Assembly (NCBI GenBank): GCA_944329365.1
Contig: CALVIC010000011.1
Span: forward strand, 1 to 42,279
Origin: an uncultured Bacilli bacterium
Lineage (GTDB): Bacteria; Bacillota_I; Bacilli_A; RF39; UBA660
Length of the DNA: 42,279 bases
Direction of reading: 5' to 3'
How positions within the stretch are numbered: position 1 is the stretch's first letter; each line of letters begins with the position of its first letter. Both the position numbers and the translations under genes were made by a program. Below, piece after piece: positions 6,073 to 31,880 of this stretch. Under the pieces are notes generated by a model. It saw only the letters and a list, made by a program, of their open reading frames with translations, was not told where the DNA came from and did no database searches.

Positions 6073-6098
6073 AAAAAATTCCTCTTTTAAAGGAATTT
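6073..6098 (-). terminator. Terminator after virD4
   Basis: On the minus strand, AAATTCC (6092-6098) pairs with GGAATTT (6076-6082) and runs into TTTTTTG. It closes the left end of the secretion locus. Confidence 0.65.
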
Positions 6099-10823: not shown

Positions 10824-13436
10824 TTACCATATAGAACCTAAGTTACTAGCACTAGCAACCCTTTTGCCACCCCATTCACTAAACCAGCCATTATTACCAG
10901 GATTACCATATTGATTATAATAAGCTCTAGCTACCTCAAATTCTATAACATTTTGACCATTATTATGACCCCATTCGTTACAGCCAGGATCATTCGGATT
11001 TTTAATATCGGCTATAATACATGGTATTTTTGTGCCATCTTCTAAATAAAAGTCAACTTTATCACCGACATTACCATAAGTAGTCGTACAAGCAATCAAA
11101 TATCTTCCATCATATGTAGCTATACCATTGTCAAACTTCGCTCCACTCTTAAGCCAGTAATTATAGTAAAGTTTTCCTTGATTAGAATTTTCGGCCCATT
11201 GCCAGCTATTATCACTATTACTATAGAAAGTAACAGTATAACCACCATTACCATATTCTTCTGGTATTTTAATATCACCAGAACCAGAATCAACCGGATC
11301 ACATATATTTTCAGTTGTTGCCTTTGAACTGCTTATCGCCCATGGTCCATAATTTTCAACCTCTAATATATTTGTTGTTATATATTCTGGAGATTGATAT
11401 CCATATCCTTCTGTATTACTTCCATTTGGATTGAATACATAAATTTTATTGGTTTTCTCGTCATAATGATCAAGCATCATAAAGTGACCGCTAGATGTAC
11501 TGTAAACCCTATTGTTCGGTGCGACATTTACTAAAACTTTCTTTCCTTGCTTAAGTGCGTTAATTACATCATCGATATTTTTATTAAGTTTTTCGCCAGA
11601 AAGTCCCCAATTCTTCGTCATTGTTGGTGAACCATCTGGAGTATCAAAATACGGTGTGGCCATTCCTGCCTTAGAAGGTGTCCAAATTCCTTCTGCTTGG
11701 ACATCTTGAACAAATCTGTTGACATCCACAGTTTGACCTGTAAACATATACTGAATAGCCATTAAAGATGCAACCGCACATCCGGCACTACAAATATTAG
11801 TATTACCTAAAGCAACATTTTTTAAATTACTACCACATTGGAAATAATTAGAAAGTCCATCAAGTCTTGATTGATATTCTGAACTACTACTGTTGAAAGA
11901 AGCATTAACAACAGTCCCCGTCGAACTTGAACTTCCTGTAGAACCAAATTCAACATCATTCGCACAAAATTTATTATAAGAAACAAGAGAACTACCTTTA
12001 TAAGCTTCTTGAAGCGTTACTAAACCTTGTTGGCCGTTAGGTGGTGAAGGATCCAGGACATAAACCGTGCCATTTTCGACATGATCAAATGCAATCCAAT
12101 GTCCAAGCGATAAAAATAAAACTATAAACGGTTGATGATTTCCGTTACAAGGCTCATTTATTGCTTGACTTAAAACTGACGCCGCATTCGAAACATTTAC
12201 AGGAACATCTCTTGCTATAGTGATAAAATTAGGCGCAATTTTTTGCCAACTATCCCAATATAAAGCCCCGCCTGTGAAACCTGCATTTTGAACAAACACT
12301 CCTGGATCAAATGAAGGAACAGTAAGCTTAGTACCAGATTTAGCAATCAAATAAGAAACTGATGTTGCCGTACATCCTATTTGACAAACATTACTTGTAC
12401 CACCTAAAGATAAATTACTCCAAGGTTCATTACATTGTCTCCAGTTAGTAATATCGCCTGTCCCAACACTTCCAGCATCATATACACATTCATCTTCCTC
12501 TGGGAAAAGCGTTTTATAAAATTCGGCAAAATCAATTATATTTTGAGCAATCTCTCTTTTAGCAATCTCTTTTTCCGGCCCTTCATCCATTTGTCTAATA
12601 TTTTCAAAAGTACCACCAATAAAACCGTGCTGACAAATTTGTACAGTTTGATAAACCGCATATCTAGAATCAGAACCATTTCCTGAAGAAGGATCAATTA
12701 AAGAAACAAACCATCCTATTATAGGCAGTGACCTTATCGTCGCATTAATCGTCTGACCCACAAACTGCCCAGTACAAGCAACTCCATTTACTAAGAAATT
12801 ATCCGATCCAAAACCATTCTTAGCAAGGGCTTCTTTGTAATTTTCTTCATTATATTGTCCATCGACAGAAGAATTAATCATTATAATTGCTGCCGCATCA
12901 AGCGCATCAATCTCGCTTTGATCAATTCCTGTATACTCTTCGATATCAGTTGAACCACCCTCTTTTCCGATGATCCAATCACCTAAAGTCTCATACCACT
13001 CTCTATACTCTTCTTCGTTGTAATCTTCATCGTACACAGAGTCAAGCATACTATAATAATCACCTTGAAATAATACTGTCGATGCTAAAACAATTTTATC
13101 AATTTTATCGCCATTAACAGCCGCAATAATATCTATCTTGTTTTTAAATTGCTCAAGTTTAGTATCCTCAAGTTCCTCTGTCGAACAAAAAATACATGAA
13201 CCTCTAAGCGTATTATTAATTCGCTCGTCGGCTTGCTGTACAAAACCTAAAAAATAAGAAACAATAGCGACAATTATAAGTATAGAAAATAAGAAAATAG
13301 ATGCCCCTAAAACTATCCCTAAAATCATAAATTTAAAATGTGACTTAAAAAAGCCGCCAACCATCTTCGTTGGATCAAATCCCACAGATTTTGTTGCTTT
13401 ATTCTTTATAAAATTTAAGGCTAATTTAGGAAGCAT
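10824..13436 (-). CDS. Membrane-anchored protein with two C39-like peptidase domains and a tail-lysin-like C-terminal domain
   Basis: The 870-residue protein has a cytosolic start, one membrane helix (about 37-63) and a large outer part. Two papain-fold C39-like domains are visible. The first has QCxxPW..., Cys355 in QIGCTATS, His446 in GHWIAF and Asp462 in LDPSP. The second has Cys553 in SAGCAVAS, His651 in GHFMML and Asn669 in FNPNG. The last ~130 residues (about 735-845, with GDKVDFYLEDGTKIPCIIADIK and a later GHNNGQNVIEFEV) resemble barrel domains at the ends of phage-tail and conjugation wall hydrolases. It is the last gene of the VirB-like operon, after virB4, where Gram-positive systems often keep their VirB1-like hydrolase. 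That role is inferred. Region 75-330 is unassigned. Confidence 0.75.
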   Translation of the reverse strand: MLPKLALNFIKNKATKSVGFDPTKMVGGFFKSHFKFMILGIVLGASIFLFSILIIVAIVSYFLGFVQQADERINNTLRGSCIFCSTEELEDTKLEQFKNKIDIIAAVNGDKIDKIVLASTVLFQGDYYSMLDSVYDEDYNEEEYREWYETLGDWIIGKEGGSTDIEEYTGIDQSEIDALDAAAIIMINSSVDGQYNEENYKEALAKNGFGSDNFLVNGVACTGQFVGQTINATIRSLPIIGWFVSLIDPSSGNGSDSRYAVYQTVQICQHGFIGGTFENIRQMDEGPEKEIAKREIAQNIIDFAEFYKTLFPEEDECVYDAGSVGTGDITNWRQCNEPWSNLSLGGTSNVCQIGCTATSVSYLIAKSGTKLTVPSFDPGVFVQNAGFTGGALYWDSWQKIAPNFITIARDVPVNVSNAASVLSQAINEPCNGNHQPFIVLFLSLGHWIAFDHVENGTVYVLDPSPPNGQQGLVTLQEAYKGSSLVSYNKFCANDVEFGSTGSSSSTGTVVNASFNSSSSEYQSRLDGLSNYFQCGSNLKNVALGNTNICSAGCAVASLMAIQYMFTGQTVDVNRFVQDVQAEGIWTPSKAGMATPYFDTPDGSPTMTKNWGLSGEKLNKNIDDVINALKQGKKVLVNVAPNNRVYSTSSGHFMMLDHYDEKTNKIYVFNPNGSNTEGYGYQSPEYITTNILEVENYGPWAISSSKATTENICDPVDSGSGDIKIPEEYGNGGYTVTFYSNSDNSWQWAENSNQGKLYYNYWLKSGAKFDNGIATYDGRYLIACTTTYGNVGDKVDFYLEDGTKIPCIIADIKNPNDPGCNEWGHNNGQNVIEFEVARAYYNQYGNPGNNGWFSEWGGKRVASASNLGSIW

Positions 13437-13462: not shown

Positions 13463-15247
13463 TTATAATCCACCACCAGAACCAAATGAATCAAGTTCTT
13501 GATCAGTAACTACAACATTTATTCTCATTCGTTTACTACCACATACAAACAAGGCTTCACCTTGATTGTATCCTTTAATATTTTCTTTTTCGTTATCGTT
13601 TAAATCTATTAACTTAGACAAATCTTCAACAGCTTGTTTTTTCAGACCCATTACCAAGTAATAAGAAGCATTATCAAATATTGCCTTACCTTGAGTAATA
13701 ACTGATGGATCACTAAAATCAGTTGGCTGCTGTGTAATAATAATTGTTCCTGTATTATACTTACGCGCACGTCTTTGAATTTGAGCTAAGAAATCCGCAC
13801 CTAAAGTATTACTACCAGATAAAAGAACATGAGCTTCATCTACCATAAGTACTGTATTTTGATTAACATCTAAAGTTAAACTCCACGCATATTTAAGAAC
13901 ATTGAAGAATAATGCATTTCTAATATTAGAATCAGTATTCATAAGTTCTCTAATATTAAACACTATAAAATCACTTCTTGGGGTAATTGTCGTTGTCCCA
14001 TCAAAATAGAAACGAAGCTCGCCAATTAAAGGCCTCATTTTAAGCTCCAAATGTTCCAAAATATCTCTTTCTCTACTCTGTTCAGGCATTGAAGTAATCT
14101 TACCTCTTACAGTCGCATAAACATCCTTTAACGTAGGATAATCTGCTGAAGTAAAATGTGTAAAATCTGTATTAAAATCAATACCAAAACGTTTATAAGT
14201 CTCTTGAACCATTTCACTAAATACATTTACAACATCATCAGTAATAGACGGATCATAATATTTTATAAACGCTTTTATAGTCTGTAAAGTTCTAGTTAAA
14301 ACAGCATATCCAAGACCTTGTTTAATTTCATCCTCATCGGCATCGATTACGACTTCAAGTGGATTGATCATACCAAACTCTCCACCTTTACCTAAATCGA
14401 TAAAGTCTCCGCCATAAAGTCTTGTCATATCCTCAAGTTCACCCTCAGGATCGATTACAACAAGTTTATATCCATTTCTAATATGATTACGAAGAAGTAA
14501 TTTAGCCGCCGTAGACTTACCACTACCAGACGTACCAAGAATAATCATATTAGCATTATTTCTATTGTGTTCCTTTTGAACTTGATATAAAAACTGATTG
14601 AATAAAACAACACCACCTGAGAAATCGACACCAAGTAAAGTCGATAAACCAGGATCTTTAATACTATCAAATACGAAAGGATACATTGCCGCAATAGTTG
14701 GAGATGGAATAGGAGTTCCTATCCTATCCTCAATATCTTGCTTAGGAAAAATTGGAAGCATTGACTTTAAAACCTTTTCCTGTTCAAATCTTAAAGGAAT
14801 AGCTCGCATATTCATTGCTTCTAGATACCCTCTAAGTTGTAATTTCTTAGAAGTAAGTTCCTCATCAGAATCAGCCGTAATCATCAAATGTAGTTGAAAA
14901 TCAAATATTCTTGATTGACTAGCCGCAAGTTGTTTAATAAACTCCTCCAAAGACTCATAATCCTGTCTAAGTCTTTCCTGAATAGTTACATCATGCTCTT
15001 CCTGATAACGAACCTTTAAATCGGCAATCTCTTTATTAACCATCTTCGTAATAACACTAAATGGTAAAGGAATATGTTTAATAACCATTTTAATACCAGA
15101 CATACTAGTTAAATTAGCTAAAAACCCAGGTGCGATGACCTTTGGATAAGATATAACTGTCATAATAGTTGAATACTTATCACTAGCCACAAAACTACTA
15201 GGTCTAAACTCAAGCCCTTTCGGCGCAATTTGTGTCTTTATATCCAT
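13463..15247 (-). CDS. virB4: VirB4/TraE-type secretion ATPase
   Basis: VirB4 energises assembly of the secretion channel and pilus. The 594-residue product begins with a VirB4 N-terminal subdomain (YSTIMTVISYPKVIAPGFLANL, about 25-46). The motor domain has Walker A GTSGSGKS (238-245), LVVIDPEGELEDM (262-274), Walker B VLMVDEAHVLL (466-476) and the QRRARKYNTGTIIITQQ segment (490-506). Usual VirB4 proteins have about 650-850 residues. The missing first part corresponds to the gene just upstream, whose stop overlaps this start as TAATG, so the two are translationally coupled. No separate ribosome binding site is evident. Confidence 0.93.
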   Translation of the reverse strand: MDIKTQIAPKGLEFRPSSFVASDKYSTIMTVISYPKVIAPGFLANLTSMSGIKMVIKHIPLPFSVITKMVNKEIADLKVRYQEEHDVTIQERLRQDYESLEEFIKQLAASQSRIFDFQLHLMITADSDEELTSKKLQLRGYLEAMNMRAIPLRFEQEKVLKSMLPIFPKQDIEDRIGTPIPSPTIAAMYPFVFDSIKDPGLSTLLGVDFSGGVVLFNQFLYQVQKEHNRNNANMIILGTSGSGKSTAAKLLLRNHIRNGYKLVVIDPEGELEDMTRLYGGDFIDLGKGGEFGMINPLEVVIDADEDEIKQGLGYAVLTRTLQTIKAFIKYYDPSITDDVVNVFSEMVQETYKRFGIDFNTDFTHFTSADYPTLKDVYATVRGKITSMPEQSRERDILEHLELKMRPLIGELRFYFDGTTTITPRSDFIVFNIRELMNTDSNIRNALFFNVLKYAWSLTLDVNQNTVLMVDEAHVLLSGSNTLGADFLAQIQRRARKYNTGTIIITQQPTDFSDPSVITQGKAIFDNASYYLVMGLKKQAVEDLSKLIDLNDNEKENIKGYNQGEALFVCGSKRMRINVVVTDQELDSFGSGGGL

Positions 15248-15801
15248 TAACTCATCACCGCCCCAAACGTTGTGGTTGAACCACCATTTAAGAAATTATC
15301 TAAAATTATTCGCAAATCATCATTAGAAGTCTGAGTTGCAACAAGCTGAGCACTCGCAAAATTTTGAATTAAACTTCTTATTTTCTTCTGAATTTTATCC
15401 ATATCTTTTTCTTTAAAAAGCAAATAAAACTCAGTATCGACAACATTATTTGTCGTAAACATATTTGCCTTATTAATGTCTTCCATAATTAATTTTCTTC
15501 TAACAGGGTTAATTTCTGAATTGTATAAAAGTTGAAGTCTTGATAAATAAGCCGTTATATCAACTGGCCTATCAGCTGCAATAATCCAGAATTCATAATC
15601 AATCATGTTATAAACATTACGCAAATTATTGATTATTAAGTTTTGTTCACTAGGATCGAGAATAAAAATATTTCTAGGGGATATTTTTACACCCGTTACC
15701 TTATCATTGTTTTCACATATAATAACGCCATTTGTAATTGATTTAATAGGTACAAAATCATTTGTGTATTTGCTTCGACTCGTCGTACTCATCTTTTGCA
15801 C
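15247..15801 (-). CDS. TrsD-like protein, detached N-terminal part of VirB4
   Basis: The 184-residue protein reads like the first domain of VirB4/TrsE ATPases: FVPIKSITNGVIICENNDKVTGVKISPRNIFILDPSEQNLIINNLRNVYN, then an RPVDITAYLSRLQ segment and REL-type helices. A separate TrsD gene before TrsE (VirB4) is known in staphylococcal and enterococcal conjugation plasmids. The annotated start is GTG (15799-15801) with AAAGG 5 bases before. An ATG at 15792 is an alternative that removes three residues. It overlaps the PrgI-like gene by 44 bp and virB4 by 1 bp. It is probably a structural partner that rebuilds a complete VirB4. Confidence 0.75.
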   Translation of the reverse strand: MQKMSTTSRSKYTNDFVPIKSITNGVIICENNDKVTGVKISPRNIFILDPSEQNLIINNLRNVYNMIDYEFWIIAADRPVDITAYLSRLQLLYNSEINPVRRKLIMEDINKANMFTTNNVVDTEFYLLFKEKDMDKIQKKIRSLIQNFASAQLVATQTSNDDLRIILDNFLNGGSTTTFGAVMS

Positions 15802-16084
15802 ACCATCCTTTCCAAATAAATCTTTGCCTAGTTGTATAAAAAGTGTATAACTCTCTTATAATAACCAAAGTATTATGATAATTAGGAATTGGTAAAACCA
15901 AAAATCCTGTTATTACTCCCGGAGCCAAATCAATAGCCGCCATAAGTAAACTGGAAGGGGACAGAATCATAAGCATTAATATTGTGATTCCAAGTCCCGT
16001 TCCAAAAAGTATCAAATCCCCTGTTGTAAACACTCCAAATATGAGCATTGATTTCTTTGTATTTGTCGGTATCAAATAGTTCAT
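15758..16084 (-). CDS. PrgI/VirB3-like membrane protein
   Basis: PrgI-family proteins are the VirB3 equivalents of Gram-positive conjugation systems and associate with VirB4 at the inner face of the channel. The 108-residue product has the family layout: IPTNTKKSMLIFGVFTTGDLI at the start, two adjacent membrane segments (about 27-45 and 48-66), and a cytosolic C-terminus with an aromatic/arginine-rich segment (YTFYTTRQRFIWKG). It precedes the TrsD-like and virB4 genes, the standard VirB3-VirB4 neighbourhood. Strong ribosome binding site AAGGAGG. Confidence 0.85.
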   Translation of the reverse strand: MNYLIPTNTKKSMLIFGVFTTGDLILFGTGLGITILMLMILSPSSLLMAAIDLAPGVITGFLVLPIPNYHNTLVIIRELYTFYTTRQRFIWKGWCAKDEYDESKQIHK

Positions 16085-18368: not shown

Positions 18369-19292
18369 TTATTTACCAACCCCACAAAGTGGATCGTCTT
18401 GATTAACTCCGGCTATATTACCGATTCCATTAACTGTTTGAATTGCAAAATTAACTATTACTGGTGCAAGTAATAAAACCACTAAACAAATAATTCTCAC
18501 CTTAAGTCCTTTAGCAAAGTCTTTAATTGCATCCTCCGTTCCAGTTATCACCTTAATACCTGAAACACAAGTCATTACAATAACCAGTATAATACCACCT
18601 ATACTTATCCAAGTAAAAATAGTATTTAACAAGTTTTTAAGATCATCATCTATTAAATTACAATTACCTGAATCATTACTATAATTAGATGTTTGATCCT
18701 TTCCGTAATAATTTTTTATATCATCGACTGAAGCCAAGCTATCATCTACAATTGGCGTATCCGCACTATCATCACTAGGTACAGTCGTATTAGTAGTTCC
18801 TTCATGAAAAACTTCATCATCATCCACAGAAAAACTACTATTATTATCATTATTAACATCACTTTTACTCAAAGACATAGTTGTAATATTTTTAGCTCCA
18901 GCCTCTTCCGCAGATTTTTGGGTAAGATAAACCTCATTCATTGAAAAACCAGTAGAAGAAGCCAAAAACAAATAATTAGGACATTTCCATTTACCATCAC
19001 TCTGAAATCTCTCTTTTATCGTATCCGCACCCAAAAATTTCATATTTGTCGGCGCACTACCTTGATCAAAAGTGTTTTTATTATTATAAATAAGAATATT
19101 ACTTACAAACAATCCCTCAGAGTTAGTATAAACATTCGCTTCTATCCGATATGAAGCCCCATTATCACTAGTTGATGATTGAAATTGACCATAGTCACAT
19201 AAAGCATAGCCATTCATTGTTTTTATATCAGCTGCCAAAGTATGTGGGACAAACGTAAAAAACAAAATCAAAATTAAAAGTTTTAGTTTCAT
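18369..19292 (-). CDS. Large VirB2/TrbC-like pilin with secreted N-terminal domain (copy 2)
   Basis: The 307-residue precursor has a signal peptide (cleavage near residue 20, HTLA), a ~180-residue outer domain starting IKTMNGYALCDYG, and an acidic Ser/Asp-rich linker. The C-terminal 107 residues hold two membrane helices separated by the basic loop GTEDAIKDFAKGLKVR. This two-helix unit matches VirB2/TrbC pilins and the two short pilins upstream. Cysteines in GNCNLIDDD before the first helix and PLCGVGK after the second could close a disulfide. Its last 107 residues are almost identical to those of the preceding gene, while the outer domains have diverged. It may be a decorated or tip pilin, or a membrane component of the channel. 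Confidence 0.75.
   Translation of the reverse strand: MKLKLLILILFFTFVPHTLAADIKTMNGYALCDYGQFQSSTSDNGASYRIEANVYTNSEGLFVSNILIYNNKNTFDQGSAPTNMKFLGADTIKERFQSDGKWKCPNYLFLASSTGFSMNEVYLTQKSAEEAGAKNITTMSLSKSDVNNDNNSSFSVDDDEVFHEGTTNTTVPSDDSADTPIVDDSLASVDDIKNYYGKDQTSNYSNDSGNCNLIDDDLKNLLNTIFTWISIGGIILVIVMTCVSGIKVITGTEDAIKDFAKGLKVRIICLVVLLLAPVIVNFAIQTVNGIGNIAGVNQDDPLCGVGK
18372..18692. repeat. Direct repeat B of a 321-bp duplicated segment
   Basis: Aligned without gaps to 19320-19640, I count 19 differences in 321 bp, about 94% identity. It covers the last 107 codons of the gene ending at 18369. The flanking outer-domain codons are not similar at this level. Confidence 0.9.
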
Positions 19293-19316
19293 ATTTATAT
19301 CACCTAATTAATAAAA

Positions 19317-20336
19317 TCATTTACCAACCCCGCAAAGTGGATCATCTTGATTAACTCCGGCTATATTACCAATTCCATTAACTGTTTGAATTGCAAAATT
19401 AACTATCACTGGTGCAAGTAATAAAACCACTAAACAAATAATTCTCACCTTAAGCCCTTTAGCAAAATCTTTGATTGCATCCTCCGTCCCGGCTATCACC
19501 TTAATACCAGAAATGCAAGTCATTATAACAACCAGTATAATACCACCTATACTTATCCAAGTAAAAATAGTATTTAACAAATTTTTAAGATCATCATCTA
19601 TTAAATTGCAATCTCCTGAATCATTACTATAATTAGATGTCGGATTCTTTTCATAATAATCTTTTATCTCTTGAAGGGAAGGCACCCCCTCCAAATAATG
19701 TTTTAAATCATCTTGAGTCTGCGTATTATCCTTATTGGTCTCGTTTTTTTCTTCATTTTTAGTAGTGTCACCACCAGACACGCCAGCTCCCGTTTGTTTG
19801 CCATCATTGATAACCGCCCCTTCTTCATTACTTCTATCTATAGATGAATTATCAAGAGCTAAAGTAAAACATCCACTATTTTTAGCATTCTTATTATTGC
19901 AGTTAATTCCAAAAACTAAATTACCACCTTTACTTAAATCATCTAAATTAGTAAAAGTAAAATTAACATTACTTGGCTGGCAAACAAACACTTTTCTTTT
20001 TCCGGATTTATCTGTTGCATCATTAACATAAAAATAACGCATCATATTCTTATTATCTCTAATTGCTCCATCATAATTATTTATCGATACATTATATGAA
20101 TTATTATTACCACTTGAAATAAAATCGACATCAGCTCCAGTTTTTGGATTATTATTCTTATCATAATATGCCCAAGTTCTAACAACTAAAGTTTCTCCTG
20201 ATACATTTGCGGTATATCTACAAAATGCATATCCATTTTTTGTTTCAATCCTATTTGTAGGCACAGCAGCCAAAATATTGCTTTTAAACATGACAAAGCT
20301 CATAAAGCAAATTAGAATCAATAAAATTTTTCGCAC
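19317..20336 (-). CDS. Large VirB2/TrbC-like pilin with secreted N-terminal domain (copy 1)
   Basis: The 339-residue precursor starts at GTG (20334-20336) after AGGTG. The signal peptide ends near residue 24 (ILAA), and the outer domain starts IETKNGYAFCRYT, parallel to the next gene's IKTMNGYALCDYG. A Lys/Asn/Thr-rich linker leads to the C-terminal two-helix pilin unit with the same flanking cysteines (GDCNLIDDD and PLCGVGK). Only 5 of the last 107 residues differ from copy 2. The gene ends in TGA. It has its own extended -10 promoter behind a terminator. Function as a variant pilin is inferred from the shared core. Confidence 0.75.
   Translation of the reverse strand: MRKILLILICFMSFVMFKSNILAAVPTNRIETKNGYAFCRYTANVSGETLVVRTWAYYDKNNNPKTGADVDFISSGNNNSYNVSINNYDGAIRDNKNMMRYFYVNDATDKSGKRKVFVCQPSNVNFTFTNLDDLSKGGNLVFGINCNNKNAKNSGCFTLALDNSSIDRSNEEGAVINDGKQTGAGVSGGDTTKNEEKNETNKDNTQTQDDLKHYLEGVPSLQEIKDYYEKNPTSNYSNDSGDCNLIDDDLKNLLNTIFTWISIGGIILVVIMTCISGIKVIAGTEDAIKDFAKGLKVRIICLVVLLLAPVIVNFAIQTVNGIGNIAGVNQDDPLCGVGK
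19320..19640. repeat. Direct repeat A of a 321-bp duplicated segment
   Basis: Partner of 18372-18692. The duplication ends abruptly at the ATTAGATG-type junction at the start of the pilin core. Confidence 0.9.
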
Positions 20337-20364
20337 CAGAGAATCACCTCAACTATCTTATCTT

Positions 20365-20373
20365 ATTATATCA
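20365..20373 (-). promoter_or_regulatory. Extended -10 promoter of the large-pilin/VirB operon
   Basis: The minus strand reads TGATATAAT, about 30 bp upstream of the GTG start at 20336. It directly follows a terminator, so it can restart transcription of the large pilins, VirB6, PrgI, VirB4 and the hydrolase. Confidence 0.55.
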
Positions 20374-20401
20374 TACAATTTAAAAATAATATATAACGAA
20401 C

Positions 20402-20432
20402 AAAAAAATATAAGAATTTAACTTATATTTTT
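20402..20432 (-). terminator. Terminator-like hairpin after the short pilins
   Basis: On the minus strand, AAAAATATAAG and CTTATATTTTT pair over 11 bp around a 7-base loop and run into T residues. It overlaps the stop codon of the second short pilin. It probably lets the short pilins be made in excess over downstream genes. Confidence 0.7.
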
Positions 20433-20850
20433 ATTCATCATTTGCTGAATCAGTATTATCATCTGCTTGAGTATCATTAGAACTATCAACTCCGTTGATA
20501 AACTTCTTCGTACAACCCCAAACATCTGTAATAGTCTGACCATCCTCATTTGATTGTTCTTCGACGCTTGATACTAAATTAACTGCAAATTGAACAATTA
20601 CAACTATCAAGAACACTACCAAAGCAGATATAAGTCTTGAAACAAAAGCCTTCTGATATTTTTTGATATCTTCTTCCTTCTTAGCTACAACTGATTTTGC
20701 AAAATCAAGCATACCCCAAATGATAAGCAAAATAGGTACAACTATTTTTATCATTTGAATAATGGTTGATACTAAATTAAAAAGTTCGTTCGGAACCAAG
20801 ATGTTTCCACATAATGTAGAATCACCTTCCAATACATAAAATAAATCCAT
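20431..20850 (-). CDS. Short VirB2/TrbC-like pilin (copy 2)
   Basis: The 139-residue product from the ATG at 20850 begins MDLFYVLEG, matching MDLFNVLDY of its neighbour. This and AGGTG placed 6 bases upstream favour it over the in-frame GTG at 20859. Two membrane helices (about 27-50 and 70-94) flank the basic loop FAKSVVAKKEEDIKKYQ, the VirB2/TrbC hairpin. One cysteine lies before helix 1 (TLCGN) and one after helix 2 (VWGCTKK). The C-terminus has an acidic Asp/Asn/Ser tail. No cleavable signal peptide is evident. It is likely a structural subunit of a pilus or channel, made with the adjacent paralogue 15 bases upstream. Confidence 0.82.
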   Translation of the reverse strand: MDLFYVLEGDSTLCGNILVPNELFNLVSTIIQMIKIVVPILLIIWGMLDFAKSVVAKKEEDIKKYQKAFVSRLISALVVFLIVVIVQFAVNLVSSVEEQSNEDGQTITDVWGCTKKFINGVDSSNDTQADDNTDSANDE

Positions 20851-20865
20851 ATTATGCACCTCTCA

Positions 20866-21216
20866 TTAAGGTTGACCATTAATTAAACTTTTTGCACATG
20901 TCCAAGCATTAGAAGAATCGTTACCATCGCCACCTAAATTACCTACAATGTTAATTGCAAGTTGAACGATTGTTACAATTAAGAACACAATTAAAGCAGC
21001 AATAAGTCTCTTCATAAATTTAGCTTGACCAGCTTTAATATCATCCTCTTTTTGAGCAATAACTGCTTTTGCAAAATCAAGCATACCCCAAATGATAAGT
21101 AAAATTGGTACAACTATTTGAAAAGCTAAAACAGCCATGTGAATAAGATTACCAACTGGTAATGGAATATTAAATCCTTGAGCAGTACAATAATCTAAAA
21201 CATTAAATAAATCCAT
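20866..21216 (-). CDS. Short VirB2/TrbC-like pilin (copy 1)
   Basis: The 116-residue protein has two membrane helices (about 25-48 and 67-92) around the basic loop FAKAVIAQKEDDIKAGQAKFMKR, typical of VirB2/TrbC pilins. It shares VVPILLIIWGMLDFAK with the next pilin. Cys10 and a cysteine near residue 107 (AWTCAKS) bracket the hairpin. It has the best ribosome binding site of the locus (AGGAGG) and the strongest promoter (TTGACA, 17 bp, TATATT), which fits an abundant structural subunit. VirB2 proteins polymerise into pili and may line the channel. Confidence 0.85.
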   Translation of the reverse strand: MDLFNVLDYCTAQGFNIPLPVGNLIHMAVLAFQIVVPILLIIWGMLDFAKAVIAQKEDDIKAGQAKFMKRLIAALIVFLIVTIVQLAINIVGNLGGDGNDSSNAWTCAKSLINGQP

Positions 21217-21290: not shown

Positions 21291-22304
21291 TTATTTAAAC
21301 ATACCGAATAAACCTTTTTTACTTTGTTTATTACCAGTATCGCCATTTTGTTTATAAAAACCAAGCTTAACTAAAAAATTGTTAAGTTCCGCACTATCAT
21401 CTAATTGATCATTAAGTGGGGGAATTGTTCCAAAAATATCGAGCTTAGTTTCATAACTAAAATCAGAAACATCTTGCTCACTAAGTAAACACTTGTTTAA
21501 AACTACCTTTTTATTCTTATAATTTTCTAAAGCTCTTGGACTACGTGAAAGCAATTTATTTATTTGAATTTTTGAAGGTTCAAGTAAATAAATATTTTCA
21601 TTAGCTAGTGTCTCTGCCGCTGGACTATTATTCGCATCTATTAAAATAATATCCGCATTCCCATACTTCGTAATCGCATTACCAAGCTCGCTGTTAGAAA
21701 CACTGTACATCTTATCTTCATCGAAATACATAAAATCGTGTTTGTCGACCTCGATAGCAACTACATTATAATTATGAGAAAGTTGTCTTTTAGCAATATA
21801 AACCAAAGTTGTCGAACCCGCATTTTGCGTTACATCTTTAAAACTAATTACCACGCGGCTCTTAACATCCTGAAGTGGTGTCGGCGCTTGATAACTAGCA
21901 CCCATCTCTCCTGTATGCACTGTATCAAGTTGATGATACTGTGCCACATCACGATAACTATTAGGGTGACTATACAAATACTTGACACCTTCAACATTCA
22001 TCGTAAAATTGTAAATCCGCATTGAAATCAAATCAGATAAATACTCCGGAGCCGAAGTCTCAGGCGAACCATCTAAAAGCAAAATTACCCTATCCATATC
22101 TAAAGAAAGTGATAACTTCTGTAAAGTTTTAATATCCTTATAATTTTTAAGTGCCGTTATATCTAATATCATCTTTTGAAAATAGAAATTTTTGAAAGTT
22201 TCTATTATCTCATCAACACTAAACTCCCCTTCTAATTTTTTTATAATCTCTATATCCAAACTAGCCAAGGCATCACGATATTTATTAGCAACAATTACAT
22301 TCAT
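21291..22304 (-). CDS. tadZ: TadZ/CpaE-like ParA-superfamily protein with degenerate P-loop
   Basis: TadZ/CpaE proteins position Tad pilus machines at the cell membrane. The 337-residue product has an N-terminal receiver-like half (about 1-115, with VILLLDGS and a segment IYNFTMNVEGVKYLYSHP). The second half is ParA/MinD-like, starting VVISFKDVTQNAGSTTLVYIA (151-171), then a VVAIEVDKHD strand, ADIILIDANN, KKVVLNKC and DIFGTIPP. The P-loop is TQNAGSTT, without the signature or catalytic lysines, as in some TadZ proteins, so nucleotide binding may be altered. It has a strong AAGGAGG ribosome binding site. It lies between the TadE/F-like genes and the VirB2-like pilins. Confidence 0.78.
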   Translation of the reverse strand: MNVIVANKYRDALASLDIEIIKKLEGEFSVDEIIETFKNFYFQKMILDITALKNYKDIKTLQKLSLSLDMDRVILLLDGSPETSAPEYLSDLISMRIYNFTMNVEGVKYLYSHPNSYRDVAQYHQLDTVHTGEMGASYQAPTPLQDVKSRVVISFKDVTQNAGSTTLVYIAKRQLSHNYNVVAIEVDKHDFMYFDEDKMYSVSNSELGNAITKYGNADIILIDANNSPAAETLANENIYLLEPSKIQINKLLSRSPRALENYKNKKVVLNKCLLSEQDVSDFSYETKLDIFGTIPPLNDQLDDSAELNNFLVKLGFYKQNGDTGNKQSKKGLFGMFK

Positions 22305-23408: not shown

Positions 23409-23642
23409 TTATTTAGTATTAGAGTTGTTAACGCACTCTCTATAACCAGCCTCATCATAAGTATTACTGTTACCACGAGTACATTGACCACTTTTCCATA
23501 CACCACCAGCATCTGTACAACAAGCACGTTCAGCTGTATTACTCATCAAACTAGTGATTAATGGAGTAACAACCGCAACGATAACACCGATTAAGATAAT
23601 CGCAACAACTGTTAAGTTTGCCTCACCTGCAGCTTCTTTCAT
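23409..23642 (-). CDS. Small Flp-like pilin
   Basis: The 77-residue protein starts MKEAAGEANLTVVAIILIGVIVAVVTPLI, a short start with a Gly-Glu pair followed by a long hydrophobic helix, as in Flp/type IV-like pilins. The remaining ~45 residues are outside the membrane and hold four cysteines (ACCTDAGG, SGQC, YRECV). Its own extended -10 promoter, a strong AGGTGGTG ribosome binding site and a following attenuator suggest high expression, as for a major pilin. It sits directly after tadC. The exact processing site is uncertain: cleavage after Gly6 is possible, but no prepilin peptidase gene is in the window. Confidence 0.68.
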   Translation of the reverse strand: MKEAAGEANLTVVAIILIGVIVAVVTPLITSLMSNTAERACCTDAGGVWKSGQCTRGNSNTYDEAGYRECVNNSNTK

Positions 23643-23736: not shown

Positions 23737-24531
23737 CTAATAATTCATCATCATCATCATTGATAAAAGTAGGAAACCTAAAATTCCACCACCTGTACCG
23801 AATAACATGATCATCGTCTTGTTTTCCATCTTCTCAAGACGCTCTTTATATTTTTGCTCACGAGCCTTATTTTGAAGTGTTGAAATAGTTCTTGAGAAAA
23901 CAAGCAATTGTTCCTGCTTATTTTCTTGACTACCAAGTCCTAAACGATAAAGCAGTCTCATCATTCGCATTGAATCACGAACTGGATACTCATTTGCAAA
24001 ATCCATATAAGGTTGAACAGAAGAATCACCGGAATCGATTTTTGCAACTAAAGTTCTAAGACCAGGCTTAAAAATTTCAGGAGCTGTATCGATTGATTTC
24101 GCAAGAGCAACAGGAACTGTATAATGTTGTATCAAAATTTCAAGTCCCTTTAAATAGTATGGAAGCATTAAGTTAATTCTATGTAAATTTGCCTTATAAT
24201 AATTTTTTAAATTCATATAAGGAAGTTTAAATACTAAGAAACCAATAAGTAATGAAAGTAAAATATAAGCAAAAGATAATTGATTTAAGAAAATGAAAAA
24301 CATAACAATAATTGCCAAAATTCCATTTCTTACTCTCTGTCCAAATAACTTTTCGACATCGATATCTCCGCCATATCTAACACTTAACAAAAACTTATAA
24401 TCATCTTCCATCAAAAACATGAAATAAGGCTCTGTCTCTTTAATAAATTTATGAGAACTAAAATGATTATTAAAGGACAAAATAATAACTATAATAATAC
24501 CAATTAAAATAAACATTAATCCTAAATTCAT
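23737..24531 (-). CDS. tadC: TadC-like GspF-family membrane platform protein
   Basis: TadB and TadC form the inner-membrane platform that works with the CpaF/TadA ATPase. The 264-residue protein has an N-terminal helix (1-20), a helix pair near 70-110, a cytosolic GspF-type helical domain (LNLMLPYYLKGLEILIQHY onward, with PVALAKSIDTAPEIFKPGLRTLVAKIDSGDS) and a C-terminal helix (about 242-262). It follows tadB with a TAATG overlap. The segment order and neighbours make TadC the natural name, though the TadB/TadC distinction is by position. Confidence 0.82.
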   Translation of the reverse strand: MNLGLMFILIGIIIVIILSFNNHFSSHKFIKETEPYFMFLMEDDYKFLLSVRYGGDIDVEKLFGQRVRNGILAIIVMFFIFLNQLSFAYILLSLLIGFLVFKLPYMNLKNYYKANLHRINLMLPYYLKGLEILIQHYTVPVALAKSIDTAPEIFKPGLRTLVAKIDSGDSSVQPYMDFANEYPVRDSMRMMRLLYRLGLGSQENKQEQLLVFSRTISTLQNKAREQKYKERLEKMENKTMIMLFGTGGGILGFLLLSMMMMMNY

Positions 24532-25436
24532 TATTCCGCCCCCACATCTTCGTTATAATATTTTTCACCAGACAGGATAAAATATGTATTAAGCCAAATA
24601 ATACCATGTAGTAAAAGTACTACCCACCAGTCCTCAAGCATCTGGTTATAAGTCTCGATTCCAAGCATAAACTGAACAAGCATAACCATCAAATAAAGTA
24701 ATATACCAAATTGTAAAAACTTTTTATGGAAAGTTGCTCTATCAATTCTATCTCGGTAAACAGATTCGACTAACATATCAATATCCTGACTCATGTTTTC
24801 CAAGGATTCACCAGAATCCTTAGCACCTTCATTAGTAATCTGTAAAAATAATTGATGCATATTTCTAACGATAAAATAATCATATTTAGAATTCATATAT
24901 TCTATTGACTGTTCGACAGTTCCGTTTTCATAAGCCAAATCAATCATCATCTTGACATCTGACTTAACCGGATCTTCCAAAACATTAGAACTATAAACCC
25001 CTTCCAAAGCCTTAACAAAAGATTGCGTCGTTGCAAATTCCATAATTGTATTTGTCGTATATACTTGAATCTGTTCAAATATAAACTCACTATAAAGTCT
25101 CTTACACCTTAAATAAGTTAAATAAGGAATAACAGCTACTGCCGCAATTGAATATATAATTGATACGATAATATTATAAAAATACAAATATGTCACAACT
25201 GCCGCCCCAACCGCAAATACAATTACCTGAATCGCATACTGCCTTGGTGTATACTCTTGACCAAGCTCCTTAACTTTCTCTCTGACAACTTTAAATGAAT
25301 AAGGAGCATAACGGTCATATAACGCACCAACTTTTTTGTTTATGAACTTATAAACATTATTTGAATTGCTGTTATTACGATATAGAATTATAAACACAGC
25401 AATCGCTAAAACAATTAAGAAAATTACAATTGTCAT
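24531..25436 (-). CDS. tadB: TadB-like GspF-family membrane platform protein
   Basis: The 301-residue protein has an N-terminal helix (1-19), two central helices (about 72-115), a T2SSF-type cytosolic helical bundle (FEQIQVYTTNTIMEFATTQSFVKALEGVYSS and NEGAKDSGESLENMSQDID) and two C-terminal helices (about 245-290). This is the usual TadB layout and it directly follows the CpaF gene. It would couple ATP hydrolysis by CpaF to pilin movement in the membrane. It overlaps tadC by 1 bp. Confidence 0.85.
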   Translation of the reverse strand: MTIVIFLIVLAIAVFIILYRNNSNSNNVYKFINKKVGALYDRYAPYSFKVVREKVKELGQEYTPRQYAIQVIVFAVGAAVVTYLYFYNIIVSIIYSIAAVAVIPYLTYLRCKRLYSEFIFEQIQVYTTNTIMEFATTQSFVKALEGVYSSNVLEDPVKSDVKMMIDLAYENGTVEQSIEYMNSKYDYFIVRNMHQLFLQITNEGAKDSGESLENMSQDIDMLVESVYRDRIDRATFHKKFLQFGILLYLMVMLVQFMLGIETYNQMLEDWWVVLLLHGIIWLNTYFILSGEKYYNEDVGAE

Positions 25437-25452
25437 ATTTCACGTACCTCCT

Positions 25453-26937
25453 TTATTCAAATAAACTTTCACTAGTTTGACTACCAGTTAAAGGAGCCTG
25501 ACTTTGTGATTGGTTAATATTTTGATTAACCACTTGACCTTGTTGCGCATTCACTGCCGAATCAAACGCATTACTAAACACGCTCTGACTAGTCATGTTC
25601 ATATTCACTTGACCGTTAGTATTTACATCTTGACTAACCACATTACTTGAATTAACAATGCCTTGATTAATATTTGAATTAACCGCGCTACCTTGGCCAG
25701 TCACATTATTTGAATTAAAATTGTTATTCACTGATGTGACACTGTTTGAAAACATCATATTTTGTGTACTAGAACTATTAGTCACCACAGGTTCATCTTT
25801 CACTTCTGGAATAACACCTTGATTATTAGAACCATCCTTTATAAACATACTATTTTCTGGTGTCTCTTCCTCAGGCTCACCAGCCAAATTTTGAAGCTCT
25901 TTTGGTAAAAATACACCTTGAACTTCCAAATAATCGATTAAATATGGACTTGGATTATTTCTAATAATCTTACCATCCGCACCCTTTCGATATATAACAT
26001 TATGTTTAGCCTCGTTTGTATCCTCAGTTACATAAAATTCCGTAACCTCAGCAATCTCACGTTTGAATTTATGAGTAGCCTTATCAGTAAATCCTCGAAC
26101 ATAAATACCAATCTGAATATATCTACAAATAGACTTTAAAAACTGATCCATATCTTGACTAGTTTCAAGCAAACTATACATACGACTAGGAATAGAAGAA
26201 GCTTTATCAGCGTGAATAGTTGACAAAATATAATGACCAGAAGAAATAGAATTTCTAACAGCCATAACCGCTTCTGCACTACGAACCTCGGAAAGTAAAA
26301 TCCACTTTGGATTTTGACGCATACAAGCTTCCAAAATATCTGTATATGTTGCAATATTATTGGTTTTCATTGACACGATATCTCGCGTCGGAAAAATCTT
26401 ATCTAAATGAAGCTCTAAAGTATCTTCGATTGTAATAATCTTTTCATTTTCAGCAATCTTAGAAGCTAAATACTTAATAAGCTCCGTCTTTCCAGAACCA
26501 GTCTCCCCACAAGCAATAATATTACAATGACCCAAAACACATTGTTCTAAAAAATCGATAATATCGAGTTCGACATACTTTTCAGCAACAATCTTTTCCT
26601 TTTGAAGTCTAATCTTTGCCGGTGTCTTACGAACAACACAAGCAATACCATTTTGTGCGATTGAATCATGTACAAACGCTAAACGGAGTTCAGCACTTTC
26701 AGCATCCAAGAATGGATGAGCCATATTGAATGTTTTACCCATTACATTAGAACACTGAAAGGCTAATTTCTCCATAAAAGAATTATTTACTTCCTTATTT
26801 TCAACTCTGAATATACCCTTAGATAAAGTTTTTAACCATACCTGTCCACCATTGTCATAAGAAATATCAGTAATATCATCATCTTCCAAATATGGCTTTA
26901 GCGGTCCAAAGTCAATTTGGTCGAACATATTATTCAT
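25453..26937 (-). CDS. cpaF: CpaF/TadA-family secretion ATPase with N/Q-rich tail
   Basis: CpaF/TadA ATPases drive Tad pilus assembly and belong to the VirB11 superfamily. The 494-residue product has the N-terminal domain with DDDITDISYDNGGQVWLK (19-36), Walker A GETGSGKT (144-151), the Asp box ITIEDTLEL (169-177), Walker B WILLSEVRSAE (212-222) and the His box STIHADKASSIP (239-250). After about residue 365 comes a ~125-residue Asn/Gln/Ser-rich, low-complexity tail not typical of the family. In this locus it could serve the Tad part, or act as the missing VirB11 of the VirB part, or both. ATG with GAGGAG upstream. Confidence 0.92.
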   Translation of the reverse strand: MNNMFDQIDFGPLKPYLEDDDITDISYDNGGQVWLKTLSKGIFRVENKEVNNSFMEKLAFQCSNVMGKTFNMAHPFLDAESAELRLAFVHDSIAQNGIACVVRKTPAKIRLQKEKIVAEKYVELDIIDFLEQCVLGHCNIIACGETGSGKTELIKYLASKIAENEKIITIEDTLELHLDKIFPTRDIVSMKTNNIATYTDILEACMRQNPKWILLSEVRSAEAVMAVRNSISSGHYILSTIHADKASSIPSRMYSLLETSQDMDQFLKSICRYIQIGIYVRGFTDKATHKFKREIAEVTEFYVTEDTNEAKHNVIYRKGADGKIIRNNPSPYLIDYLEVQGVFLPKELQNLAGEPEEETPENSMFIKDGSNNQGVIPEVKDEPVVTNSSSTQNMMFSNSVTSVNNNFNSNNVTGQGSAVNSNINQGIVNSSNVVSQDVNTNGQVNMNMTSQSVFSNAFDSAVNAQQGQVVNQNINQSQSQAPLTGSQTSESLFE

Positions 26938-26943
26938 AAAATA

Positions 26944-27990
26944 TTACTCCTCGTCATTTGCCATTGGCACATTAGTTGTGGCAGTATGAACTTCACCCGA
27001 TTGCTCAGTAACTGAAGCTGTAAGAGTTCCTTCTTCATCGAAAGTAACTGTTACTCTTCTGTCATTTACAACAACTGGATCTTCATTATTTACAGTATAA
27101 GAACAAGTATATTCACTTCCACATCCTTCAGGGAATCTAACTGTTACACGCATATTGTTATTCTTGTTAGCTGAGAACGTTGGAACAAGCTCACTAGCAT
27201 CAATAGTATCTTGAACAATTGGAATATCTACTGAATGAGCATTAATATAATCTACAAGTTGTTGAGTTGAAACTTGAGTCGCACCTTCATCTGGTGCCTC
27301 ACCACCGTGTGGTACTGGATAAAGTTCAACACCTAAATCATCCATGTAAGAAGCTTTCTTAAGTAAGCTATACATATCAGCTGGTAAACCGAATATTAAC
27401 ATAGATGGACTTCTCTCTTCTGAAGTATTTTCAAATACCGCTCTACCAGAAGAATCCTTAACAGCTAAAACTTCGATATTTTCAATAAGCTTACCAATCA
27501 TGATAAGTTCATCCTCACCATTACCAACTTTCATATAAATATCAATCTTATTACCAGGGAAAATTGAATTACCATAAGTACTTTCCATATCAACTGGGAA
27601 ATTATACACAACCTCGCCAGCTTTTACTTTTGTAAATGCCGCATCAGGAAGTTCATCTTCGTCAATAACAGTATCCGTATAGAACATACTACCCTCAGGG
27701 ATAACTGTATTAATATTAGAATACTTACCGACAATTTGTGAAGTCGACCTAATTACATTATCTGAAATTGAAATATTAGGCATATCAATTTCCTGAACCA
27801 TATCACTCGTTATCTCAGTTCTGGGTTGAATTGTTTCTGTAGCAACTGGAATTGAAACCGGTTCTACTGCTTTATTAATTTGACTACTATAACCAATATA
27901 AAGTAATACCAAAATGATAATTACACCAATAATGGTTACAGTATTTTTGTTCTTAAAAAACCTTTTAAATGAAGCCATTACATTTTCCAT
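26944..27990 (-). CDS. cpaB: CpaB/RcpC-like SAF-domain protein
   Basis: CpaB/RcpC proteins are membrane-anchored periplasmic or wall-facing parts of Tad pilus machines. The 348-residue product has an N-terminal membrane helix (about 18-34) and a SAF domain (about 45-108: VSIPVATETIQPRTEITSDMVQEIDMP, then GKYSNINTVIPEGSMFY). A beta-rich CpaB region follows with NKIDIYMKVG and IENIEVLAVKDSSGR, then an extra C-terminal immunoglobulin-like stretch ending in an acidic tail. It lies 6 bp upstream of cpaF. The SAF domain in other CpaB proteins is thought to bind cell-wall sugars. Confidence 0.85.
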   Translation of the reverse strand: MENVMASFKRFFKNKNTVTIIGVIIILVLLYIGYSSQINKAVEPVSIPVATETIQPRTEITSDMVQEIDMPNISISDNVIRSTSQIVGKYSNINTVIPEGSMFYTDTVIDEDELPDAAFTKVKAGEVVYNFPVDMESTYGNSIFPGNKIDIYMKVGNGEDELIMIGKLIENIEVLAVKDSSGRAVFENTSEERSPSMLIFGLPADMYSLLKKASYMDDLGVELYPVPHGGEAPDEGATQVSTQQLVDYINAHSVDIPIVQDTIDASELVPTFSANKNNNMRVTVRFPEGCGSEYTCSYTVNNEDPVVVNDRRVTVTFDEEGTLTASVTEQSGEVHTATTNVPMANDEE

Positions 27991-28017: not shown

Positions 28018-28425
28018 TTAATAAGGGACCTCAAGTATAGCATTAATACGATCAGATAAATCAAAGTTCATCGTCTCACCACTCATACCATTAGACCCGA
28101 TTACCCCACTTGAAACTCTAATGCTTACCTTTGGTGGTTTCTCGTTTATATCGTAAAATTTAATATTGTATTCTCTAGACATGCTCGCACTTTCCGCATA
28201 TCTTCTAATAAAGTTTTCTACAAACTTCTCTCGGTTTATTCGAATCTCGCCAGTTGACCTATAAGAAGCATAATCAAATGAATCCCACATCGCTGCTTCT
28301 GTAACTTCTTTAAGAAGCTGTGAATTATGTTCGTCGGTATTTGTTAAATTTTGAAATAAGAATATAAAGATAATTCCAGCCACACCGAGCATTACGACAA
28401 ATACGCCCCAAAATGACTCTTTCAT
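28018..28425 (-). CDS. TadE-like membrane-anchored protein
   Basis: The 135-residue protein starts MKESFWGVFVVMLGVAGIIFIF, a short MKE start and one membrane helix as in the other TadE/F-like genes here. It continues with FDYASYRSTGEIRINREKFVENFIRRYAESAS and a beta-rich end. It has no cysteines in the outer part, unlike its relatives downstream. It lies between the large secreted protein gene and cpaB. A minor pilin or pseudopilin role in the Tad part is likely but not proved. Confidence 0.65.
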   Translation of the reverse strand: MKESFWGVFVVMLGVAGIIFIFLFQNLTNTDEHNSQLLKEVTEAAMWDSFDYASYRSTGEIRINREKFVENFIRRYAESASMSREYNIKFYDINEKPPKVSIRVSSGVIGSNGMSGETMNFDLSDRINAILEVPY

Positions 28426-31239: not shown

Positions 31240-31244
31240 TCTTA

Positions 31245-31880
31245 TCACCTTCTACCTTTAAACCTATTGTAAATAAGCATTCCTACTAAAATCAAAACAA
31301 TAACACCAAATATTGCAAATCCAAAAGCGTTATTTGATAAAAACTCTAAAATAACACTCCAAACTGAAACTTCTTGCTTATGAACATTATCTTCTTCTTC
31401 CAACTCTTCTTCATAATTAGCAAGCTCATTTTCAAATTGCTTATTAGAAAATGATGTATCAGTCCACATCTGACACAAAGAAAAATTTGGATAAGCCTTG
31501 CATTCATCAGAATTATAACGTGGATTAAACTCTGGTAAATTAACATATTTAGTACTTATTTCTCTCCCAAGACAACTAGGATCATTAGAATAAAAAGTAA
31601 ATCTCAACTTATTTCCATCTTTATATACCGAACTAACTTCGCCTACCGCTGAAAATCTTGTTCCATAATTATCTATCATATATATATCATTCGTTAAATT
31701 AGTTGCTGTAATTGTAAATTGTGGATAATAATCGATAAACTGATAATTATAACTAAATTTTACATTACTAGCAAGCTTTGAAAGCTCAGCTAATCTCTGA
31801 TAATCACAGTCTGCTTTTACCATAAAAGGAGACATACAAATAAGTGTCAGCACAATGTAAAATACCTTCTTACCCTTCAT
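31245..31880 (-). CDS. Signal-peptide membrane protein of unknown function
   Basis: The 211-residue precursor has a signal peptide (cleavage near residue 22, MVKA), a ~160-residue outer domain with four or five cysteines and the motif ECKAYPNFSLCQMWTDTSFS. A Glu-rich helical stretch (ELANYEEELEEED) leads to a C-terminal membrane helix (about 183-205) with the basic tail NRFKGRR. This is type I topology. The gene has its own extended -10 promoter and an excellent AAGGAGG. It lies 5 bp upstream of the large cysteine-repeat protein, so the two may form a complex or chaperone pair. I recognise no family. Confidence 0.72.
   Translation of the reverse strand: MKGKKVFYIVLTLICMSPFMVKADCDYQRLAELSKLASNVKFSYNYQFIDYYPQFTITATNLTNDIYMIDNYGTRFSAVGEVSSVYKDGNKLRFTFYSNDPSCLGREISTKYVNLPEFNPRYNSDECKAYPNFSLCQMWTDTSFSNKQFENELANYEEELEEEDNVHKQEVSVWSVILEFLSNNAFGFAIFGVIVLILVGMLIYNRFKGRR

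Follow-up and report, generated by a model that had tools for sequence, protein, structure and literature searches.

A stretch of 42,279 nucleotides from an uncultured Bacilli bacterium (assembly GCA_944329365.1, contig CALVIC010000011.1; hereafter the window), part of the 1.3-Mb draft genome of a gut Bacilli lineage with small genomes, contains four adjacent open reading frames (ORFs) on its minus strand, here called pilA, pilB, pilL1 and pilL2. We consider it probable that these genes specify VirB2-type pilins in an array peculiar to the lineage, and that the array belongs to a chromosomally fixed, relaxase-less machine made of a type IV secretion system (T4SS) and a Tad pilus. On this interpretation the short pilins would build the shaft, the long ones would be decorated subunits, a pair of cysteines would close each hairpin, and the machine, derived from plasmids, would serve contact or exchange between cells.

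A preliminary description of the window had proposed four tandem VirB2-like proteins sharing a hairpin of two membrane helices, and all four ORFs are present and bear this out. Both long pilins match PF18895 (T4SS_pilin) above its curated cut-off of 26.6 bits (pilL1, E = 3.3e-9, 37.8 bits; pilL2, E = 2e-9, 37.1 bits), and neither reaches the curated cut-off of 27.9 bits for PF04956 (TrbC/VirB2), with scores of 13.8 and 15.8 bits. The short and long families are homologous (hhalign probability 98.5), which joins pilA to the PF18895-type pilins. AlphaFold2 places helices at residues 19-53 and 57-94 of pilA; for pilL2 it predicts a beta-rich ectodomain at about 22-155, followed by helices at 216-250 and 254-293. 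Each hairpin has 6-7 lysine and arginine residues in its loop, against 1-2 in the C-tail and none in the N-tail; since they are concentrated in the loop, the hairpins are predicted to be N-out/C-out with both flanking cysteines outside, in agreement with the preliminary description. Thus, the proteins combine two membrane helices and a basic, predicted cytoplasmic loop, as expected of VirB2-type pilins, and their genes are encoded together with those for VirB4, VirB6 and VirD4. By inspection, the long copies have a signal peptide and the short copies have none; the preliminary suggestion that the long copies are decorated pilins is supported. Among the loci compared, the closest named relative is Candidatus Coprosoma intestinipullorum (L032), whose pilA is 97% identical.

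Exactly two cysteines are found in pilA (10/107) and in pilB (17/116). There are six in pilL1 and nine in pilL2, of which those at 243/335 and 211/303, respectively, flank the hairpin, with extra ones in the ectodomain and membrane. Homologues within the genus form two short orthologous groups (A and B) and one long group; their genes run A-B-L, the long type being present in one to three copies. The preliminary description had noted the flanking pair in all four proteins, and its idea withstood a check for loss of a cysteine among homologues: the pair is present in 94 of 94 genus homologues, with the C-side cysteine displaced in four. Among B-type proteins both cysteines are aligned in 34/34; A-type proteins have the N-side cysteine in 34/34 and the C-side cysteine aligned in 33/34, the remaining one being shifted by 3 residues; and long proteins have the N-side cysteine, one of just four invariant columns in the long family, in 26/26 and the C-side cysteine aligned in 23/26, the other three being displaced. 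In the wider bacterial family, both cysteines occur in all 64 untruncated pilin-like ORFs of the compared loci that were scored on both sides. Most of these come from other genera, but the long and B pilins of the window itself and several copies from its genus are among them. ORFs without one of the cysteines are cut by the end of a locus or start inside the hairpin. The position of the N-side cysteine drifts across the family, and this cysteine is never lost. A profile of the short pilins matches 105 of 117 family genomes, representing 104 of 116 sampled genera.

Class-wide matches to PF18895 included chance ones, such as P-type ATPases in L077 and L083; hence, comparators from outside the family were limited to small hairpin proteins. 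The cysteine pair is absent from the small PF18895-type hairpins of other Bacilli (L058, L060, L064, L071, L072 and L085) and from the hairpins of two plasmid relatives described below (L128 and L129). In this sample, then, the pair marks this lineage in particular and does not characterise the pilin family as a whole. Some genera (G105, G272 and G148) have up to 14 hairpin matches on several contigs, beyond the locus described here, and other genera have fusions of a cysteine-bracketed hairpin with an NlpC/P60 domain (L061:832-1776) or a CHAP domain (L075:292-1410).

The two flanking cysteines, both predicted to lie on the outer side, most likely join to close each hairpin. Among the exported or envelope proteins of the loci (CpaB, Flp-like, TadE/F-like, pilA and pilB), 128 of 132 have an even number of cysteines, although these sequences are related and do not represent 132 independent events. 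Typical numbers are two for CpaB, TadE-like, pilA and pilB proteins and four for Flp-like and TadF-like proteins; TadB, TadC, VirB4 and DUF5411 proteins have none or one conserved cysteine. The even counts among exported components are indirect evidence for disulfides. The cysteines might instead link neighbouring subunits, from the N-tail of one to the C-tail of the next or between short and long pilins, to give a covalently chained filament. Conservation alone cannot separate the two arrangements, and both the drift without loss of the N-side cysteine and the co-encoding of three pilin types that share these two cysteines would suit such a chain. We nevertheless regard it as rather unlikely, since, with exactly two cysteines that both face one side in a single short hairpin, an intramolecular pair is the simplest arrangement. 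We doubt more strongly that the cysteines serve for acylation or for binding of a metal or cofactor, without forming a disulfide. Such a role would suit a genus with no known thiol-oxidation pathway, but each subunit would offer just two ligands in a drifting position, no lipobox was seen, and even cysteine counts extend across unrelated exported components of the machine. Moreover, three thioredoxin-like proteins that are exported or lipoproteins are encoded in the window's own genome. One of them (G000:C13:22254-22511; L127), which is exported and has a CPHC motif, is a candidate oxidase.

The two long pilins are 96% identical in the hairpin core and 16% identical in the ectodomain. Across pairs of long copies within a genome, the hairpin region is 87-100% identical and the ectodomain 16-26%, while the best match to a hairpin of another locus is 67-85%; judged from these identities, hairpins are being homogenised while ectodomains diversify. 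At their 3' ends, compared in blocks of 33 bases across the final 330, pilL1 and pilL2 are 85-100% identical in DNA. These near-identical ends, together with the same protein pattern of alike hairpins and diverged ectodomains in L033, L036 and L038, suggest gene conversion between long pilins. Pfam searches of the long-pilin ectodomains gave two isolated weak matches and otherwise recognised no domain, and a fold search gave nothing specific. The pattern would fit subunits that are bound to one machine yet show different surfaces, for example to different partners.

The pilin genes lie in the middle of a composite locus, between Tad genes and genes for VirB6, VirB4 and VirD4 (Table 1). The gene order DUF5411-CpaB-TadA-TadB-TadC-Flp-TadE-TadF-CpaE-pilA-pilB-pilL-VirB6-g108-VirB4N-VirB4C, in which several gene names rest on position and synteny instead of a profile match, is the same in the loci long enough to display it. 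The Tad part is recognisable from matches to T2SSE and RcpC, the latter just under the cut-off, and from a TadB/TadC pair assigned by position; one A24 peptidase (prepilin peptidase) is encoded elsewhere in the window's own genome. In 11 of 11 genus loci VirB4 is split: its two ORFs overlap at stop and start codon or lie no more than one base apart, and the ATPase half has 594 residues. The open frames of the ATPase half (VirB4C) are about 600 residues long across the family, and more distant full-length VirB4s of about 780-860 residues occur in a minority. VirB4C is present in 99 of 117 family genomes, mostly at 64-81% identity and usually in one copy, and TadB in 96 of 117; counted from the two tables of matches, they lie at most 12 kb apart on one contig in 35 genera.

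Table 1. Features of the composite locus, with positions in the window (aa, amino acids; ICE, integrated conjugative element; TM, transmembrane)
Feature	Position	Strand	Characteristics or basis of assignment
VirD4/type IV coupling ATPase	6098..8461	-	PF02534, E = 1.8e-59
870-aa protein with Peptidase_C39-like domain, VirB1-like position	10824..13436	-	PF13529, E = 5e-11
VirB4 ATPase half, 594 aa	13463..15247	-	P-loop_TraG, E = 1.3e-12
VirB4 N-terminal half, 184-aa ORF	15247..15801	-	NF045975 VirB4_plasma positions 94-276, E = 4e-17, under curated cut-off
108-aa protein in VirB3/PrgI position	15758..16084	-	Assigned by position; no family match; conserved in place
VirB6-like polytopic protein, 751 aa	16099..18354	-	NF045848/NF045889 (Mbov_0396-type ICE TM protein), E = 3e-9/2e-8, under curated cut-offs; synteny
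pilL2, long pilin, 307 aa	18369..19292	-	Signal peptide; beta-rich ectodomain ~22-155; hairpin 216-293; Cys211/Cys303
pilL1, long pilin, 339 aa, GTG start	19317..20336	-	Signal peptide; Cys-bearing ectodomain; hairpin with Cys243/Cys335
pilB, short hairpin pilin, 142 aa (GTG start; 139 from inner ATG)	20431..20859	-	Cys17/Cys116
pilA, short hairpin pilin, 116 aa	20866..21216	-	Cys10/Cys107 around hairpin; no signal peptide
CpaE/TadZ-like protein	21291..22304	-	Position and synteny; no Pfam match
Two TadE/F-like single-TM proteins, 166 and 172 aa	22326..23344	-	4 and 2 conserved Cys; putative assignment
Flp/type-IVb-pilin-like protein, 77 aa, 4 Cys	23409..23642	-	Putative; N-terminal hydrophobic segment, position
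TadC and TadB-type platform proteins	23737..25436	-	Position and synteny; no significant Pfam match
TadA/CpaF-type ATPase	25453..26937	-	PF00437 T2SSE, E = 9e-28
CpaB/RcpC-type protein, 2 conserved Cys	26944..27990	-	PF16976, E = 1.8e-6, 28.2 of 28.8 bits, just under cut-off
DUF5411 protein, first small gene of Tad part	28018..28425	-	PF17424, E = 6.5e-54
Secreted Cys-rich protein, 939 aa, 32 Cys	28429..31248	-	Evolves rapidly; same place in every locus of sufficient length

A place among the Tad components is probable for DUF5411, because it adjoins cpaB in the loci long enough to display it and an Exiguobacterium plasmid has a small protein at the same position before cpaB. The 939-residue protein, which always starts the Tad part, has 22 conserved cysteine columns and belongs to no Pfam family.

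The nearest plasmid relatives of VirB4, at 28-31% identity, are on Exiguobacterium acetylicum plasmid pEYLC1.2 (L129) and on a plasmid of Mycoplasmatota strain zrk4 (L128). They were found with a VirB4 half as query; plasmid searches with the pilin or with TadB found nothing. A single stretch of pEYLC1.2 encodes a MobP3 relaxase, VirD4, a pilin, VirB6, a split VirB4, CpaB, an AAA ATPase and an ATPase of the type II secretion system (T2SS)/type IV pilus (T4P) type. The two plasmid modules resemble the family locus in having VirB6, a split VirB4, CpaB or a SAF-domain protein, and a Tad-type ATPase. They differ from it in being plasmid-borne, in having one hairpin without the cysteine pair and, in Exiguobacterium, in encoding MobP3. 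PLSDB types both plasmids as 'non-mobilizable', yet L129 carries the MobP3 relaxase and VirD4. Within the family, a pilin tree with few columns and rough supports places A and B as one clade each inside the genus clade and gives several other genera their own sister pairs, in agreement with repeated lineage-specific duplication of pilins. Most likely, to judge from these comparisons, the chromosomal locus descends from plasmid-borne Tad+T4SS conjugation modules. A Tad-assisted conjugation module would have been fixed in the chromosome, after which the relaxase was lost, the pilin multiplied and the cysteines were gained.

The same layout on plasmids, one of them with MobP3, and the presence of VirD4, VirB4, VirB6 and a C39-peptidase protein would also be expected of an ordinary ICE that happens to lie here, its relaxase being unrecognised or recently lost. 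We consider this improbable, since VirB4C is so similar and usually single-copy in most of the 99 family genomes that have it, and the more distant full-length VirB4s of ICE type in a minority of genomes are separate from it. Furthermore, the housekeeping genes smpB, rnr and tgt are found on both sides of the locus in the window. There is no relaxase among the annotated genes of the window, and PF03432, the one relaxase family searched for genome-wide, has no match in the window's own genome; scattered matches to it, one of them weak, occur in four genomes of the same genus.

We propose that a monoderm T4SS, with split VirB4, VirB6 and VirD4, works in combination with a Tad pilus. Inserted as N-out/C-out hairpins, pilA and pilB would be shaft or conduit subunits, and the long pilins would be minor, decorated subunits at the tip or along the filament, with their variable ectodomains turned outward. 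A disulfide on the outer side would close each hairpin and make the subunit more robust. VirB4 would drive the handling of pilins and VirD4 would recruit the substrate, while the Tad pilus would reach a partner cell and pull it in. The present role of the machine would then most likely be contact with neighbouring cells, with delivery to them or uptake from them.

Alternatively, the hairpins could be scaffold or channel subunits in the membrane core of the T4SS, such as VirB6-like or anchor modules, with no filament. Weak matches to the VirB6-type family NF045848, the lack of a signal peptide in the short copies and the fusions of hairpins to NlpC/P60 and CHAP domains would all be compatible with this. 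For Archaea, Beltran et al. describe homology between the N-terminal region of CedA and the pilin CedA1, and mention a weaker VirB2/VirB6 equivalent (PMC9905601). However, a separate VirB6 is already encoded in the locus, and multi-copy arrays, variable ectodomains and repeated lineage-specific duplication resemble pilin arrays; the same text describes CedA1 pilins that are likewise unprocessed. Hence, we hold a filament-free scaffold to be unlikely.

Several observations weigh against the pilin array, disulfide and relaxase-less machine that we favour. On its own, pilA has no PF18895 match in a Pfam profile search, and pilB stays under the curated cut-off (E = 4.5e-4, 20.7 bits); fold and sequence searches of the PDB gave generic helical hairpins or chance matches only. 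The NlpC/P60 and CHAP fusions are equally in keeping with a pilin and with a membrane anchor. In the AlphaFold2 model of pilA, residues 1-15, which bear the N-side cysteine, have a predicted local distance difference test score below 50, too uncertain for a distance between the cysteines. Profile searches of the genus, with positive controls, found neither DsbA nor Thioredoxin_4 nor VKOR, and conditions in the habitat are probably anoxic. Lastly, VirD4 is kept, which leaves room for DNA transfer via an unrecognised relaxase.

VirB2 pilins are described as absent from Gram-positive T4SSs except those of Patescibacteria, according to a 2025 review (PMC12857230). In Patescibacteria, 2-11 VirB2-like pilins make up an array, in most cases with no relaxase (PMC12102498), and one such array, in Saccharibacteria, is essential for epibiotic growth (PMC10633639). 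By analogy, this T4SS with its essential pilin array would be the closest functional precedent (PMC10633639; PMC12102498). In both groups, tandem divergent two-helix pilins are encoded beside VirB4 and VirB6 on the chromosome of a monoderm, mostly without a relaxase, and Patescibacteria likewise have a T4P-type pilus. The locus described here differs in belonging to Bacillota, in being joined to a Tad locus, in keeping VirD4, in its split VirB4 and in its long decorated copies with homogenised hairpins. A further distinction may be the flanking cysteine pair, seen in every untruncated copy inspected from the family.

More distant parallels exist. The archaeal DNA-import pili Ced and Ted (CedA1/TedC) are domesticated T4SSs with VirB2, VirB6 and VirB4 homologues and an unprocessed two-helix pilin, CedA1; unlike the locus studied here, they have a single pilin, and the accessible text describes no Tad genes at their loci and does not mention cysteines or disulfides (PMC9905601). 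In Mycoplasma ICEs, the pilin-like family NF045849 (Mbov_0395/MMCAP2_0565) is of hairpin type and accompanies VirB6-like and VirB4 families, but matches to it here are weak and below the cut-off, and the ICE form was compared by profile only. Linear plasmids of C. acnes combine a tad locus with VirB4/TcpC on one Gram-positive plasmid. These plasmids are actinobacterial, and the accessible portion of their description, which calls the link between tad and conjugation genes functionally unclear, contains no VirB2-type array (PMC5696575). Each element is already known singly: arrays of pilins, Tad loci carried by Gram-positive plasmids (PMC5696575) and T4SSs that have been domesticated (PMC9905601). 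New in the literature searched are the strict cysteine bracket, the arrays in a second monoderm lineage and the occurrence of the composite throughout a whole bacterial family.

Pilin arrays thus occur in a second monoderm lineage, unrelated to Patescibacteria, and in it the hairpin is found in nearly all sampled genera. With a cysteine pair so strictly conserved, a single residue gives access to how monoderm T4SS pilins are stabilised. A further question is what enzyme would oxidise exported cysteines here, as neither DsbA nor VKOR is recognised in the genus. The physical joining of Tad genes to a T4SS raises the idea that both machines work as one, and the relaxase-less composite cluster suggests a device retooled for contacting neighbouring cells. 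More tentatively, and with less confidence than in the pilin array itself, we suggest that around a hundred genera of small-genome gut Bacilli may have inherited a chromosomal Tad+T4SS organelle, with disulfide-closed pilin arrays and swappable decorated pilins, for contact or exchange with microbial or host cells. Such an organelle would be the Bacillota counterpart of the essential Saccharibacteria T4SS, and would suggest an epibiont-like lifestyle.

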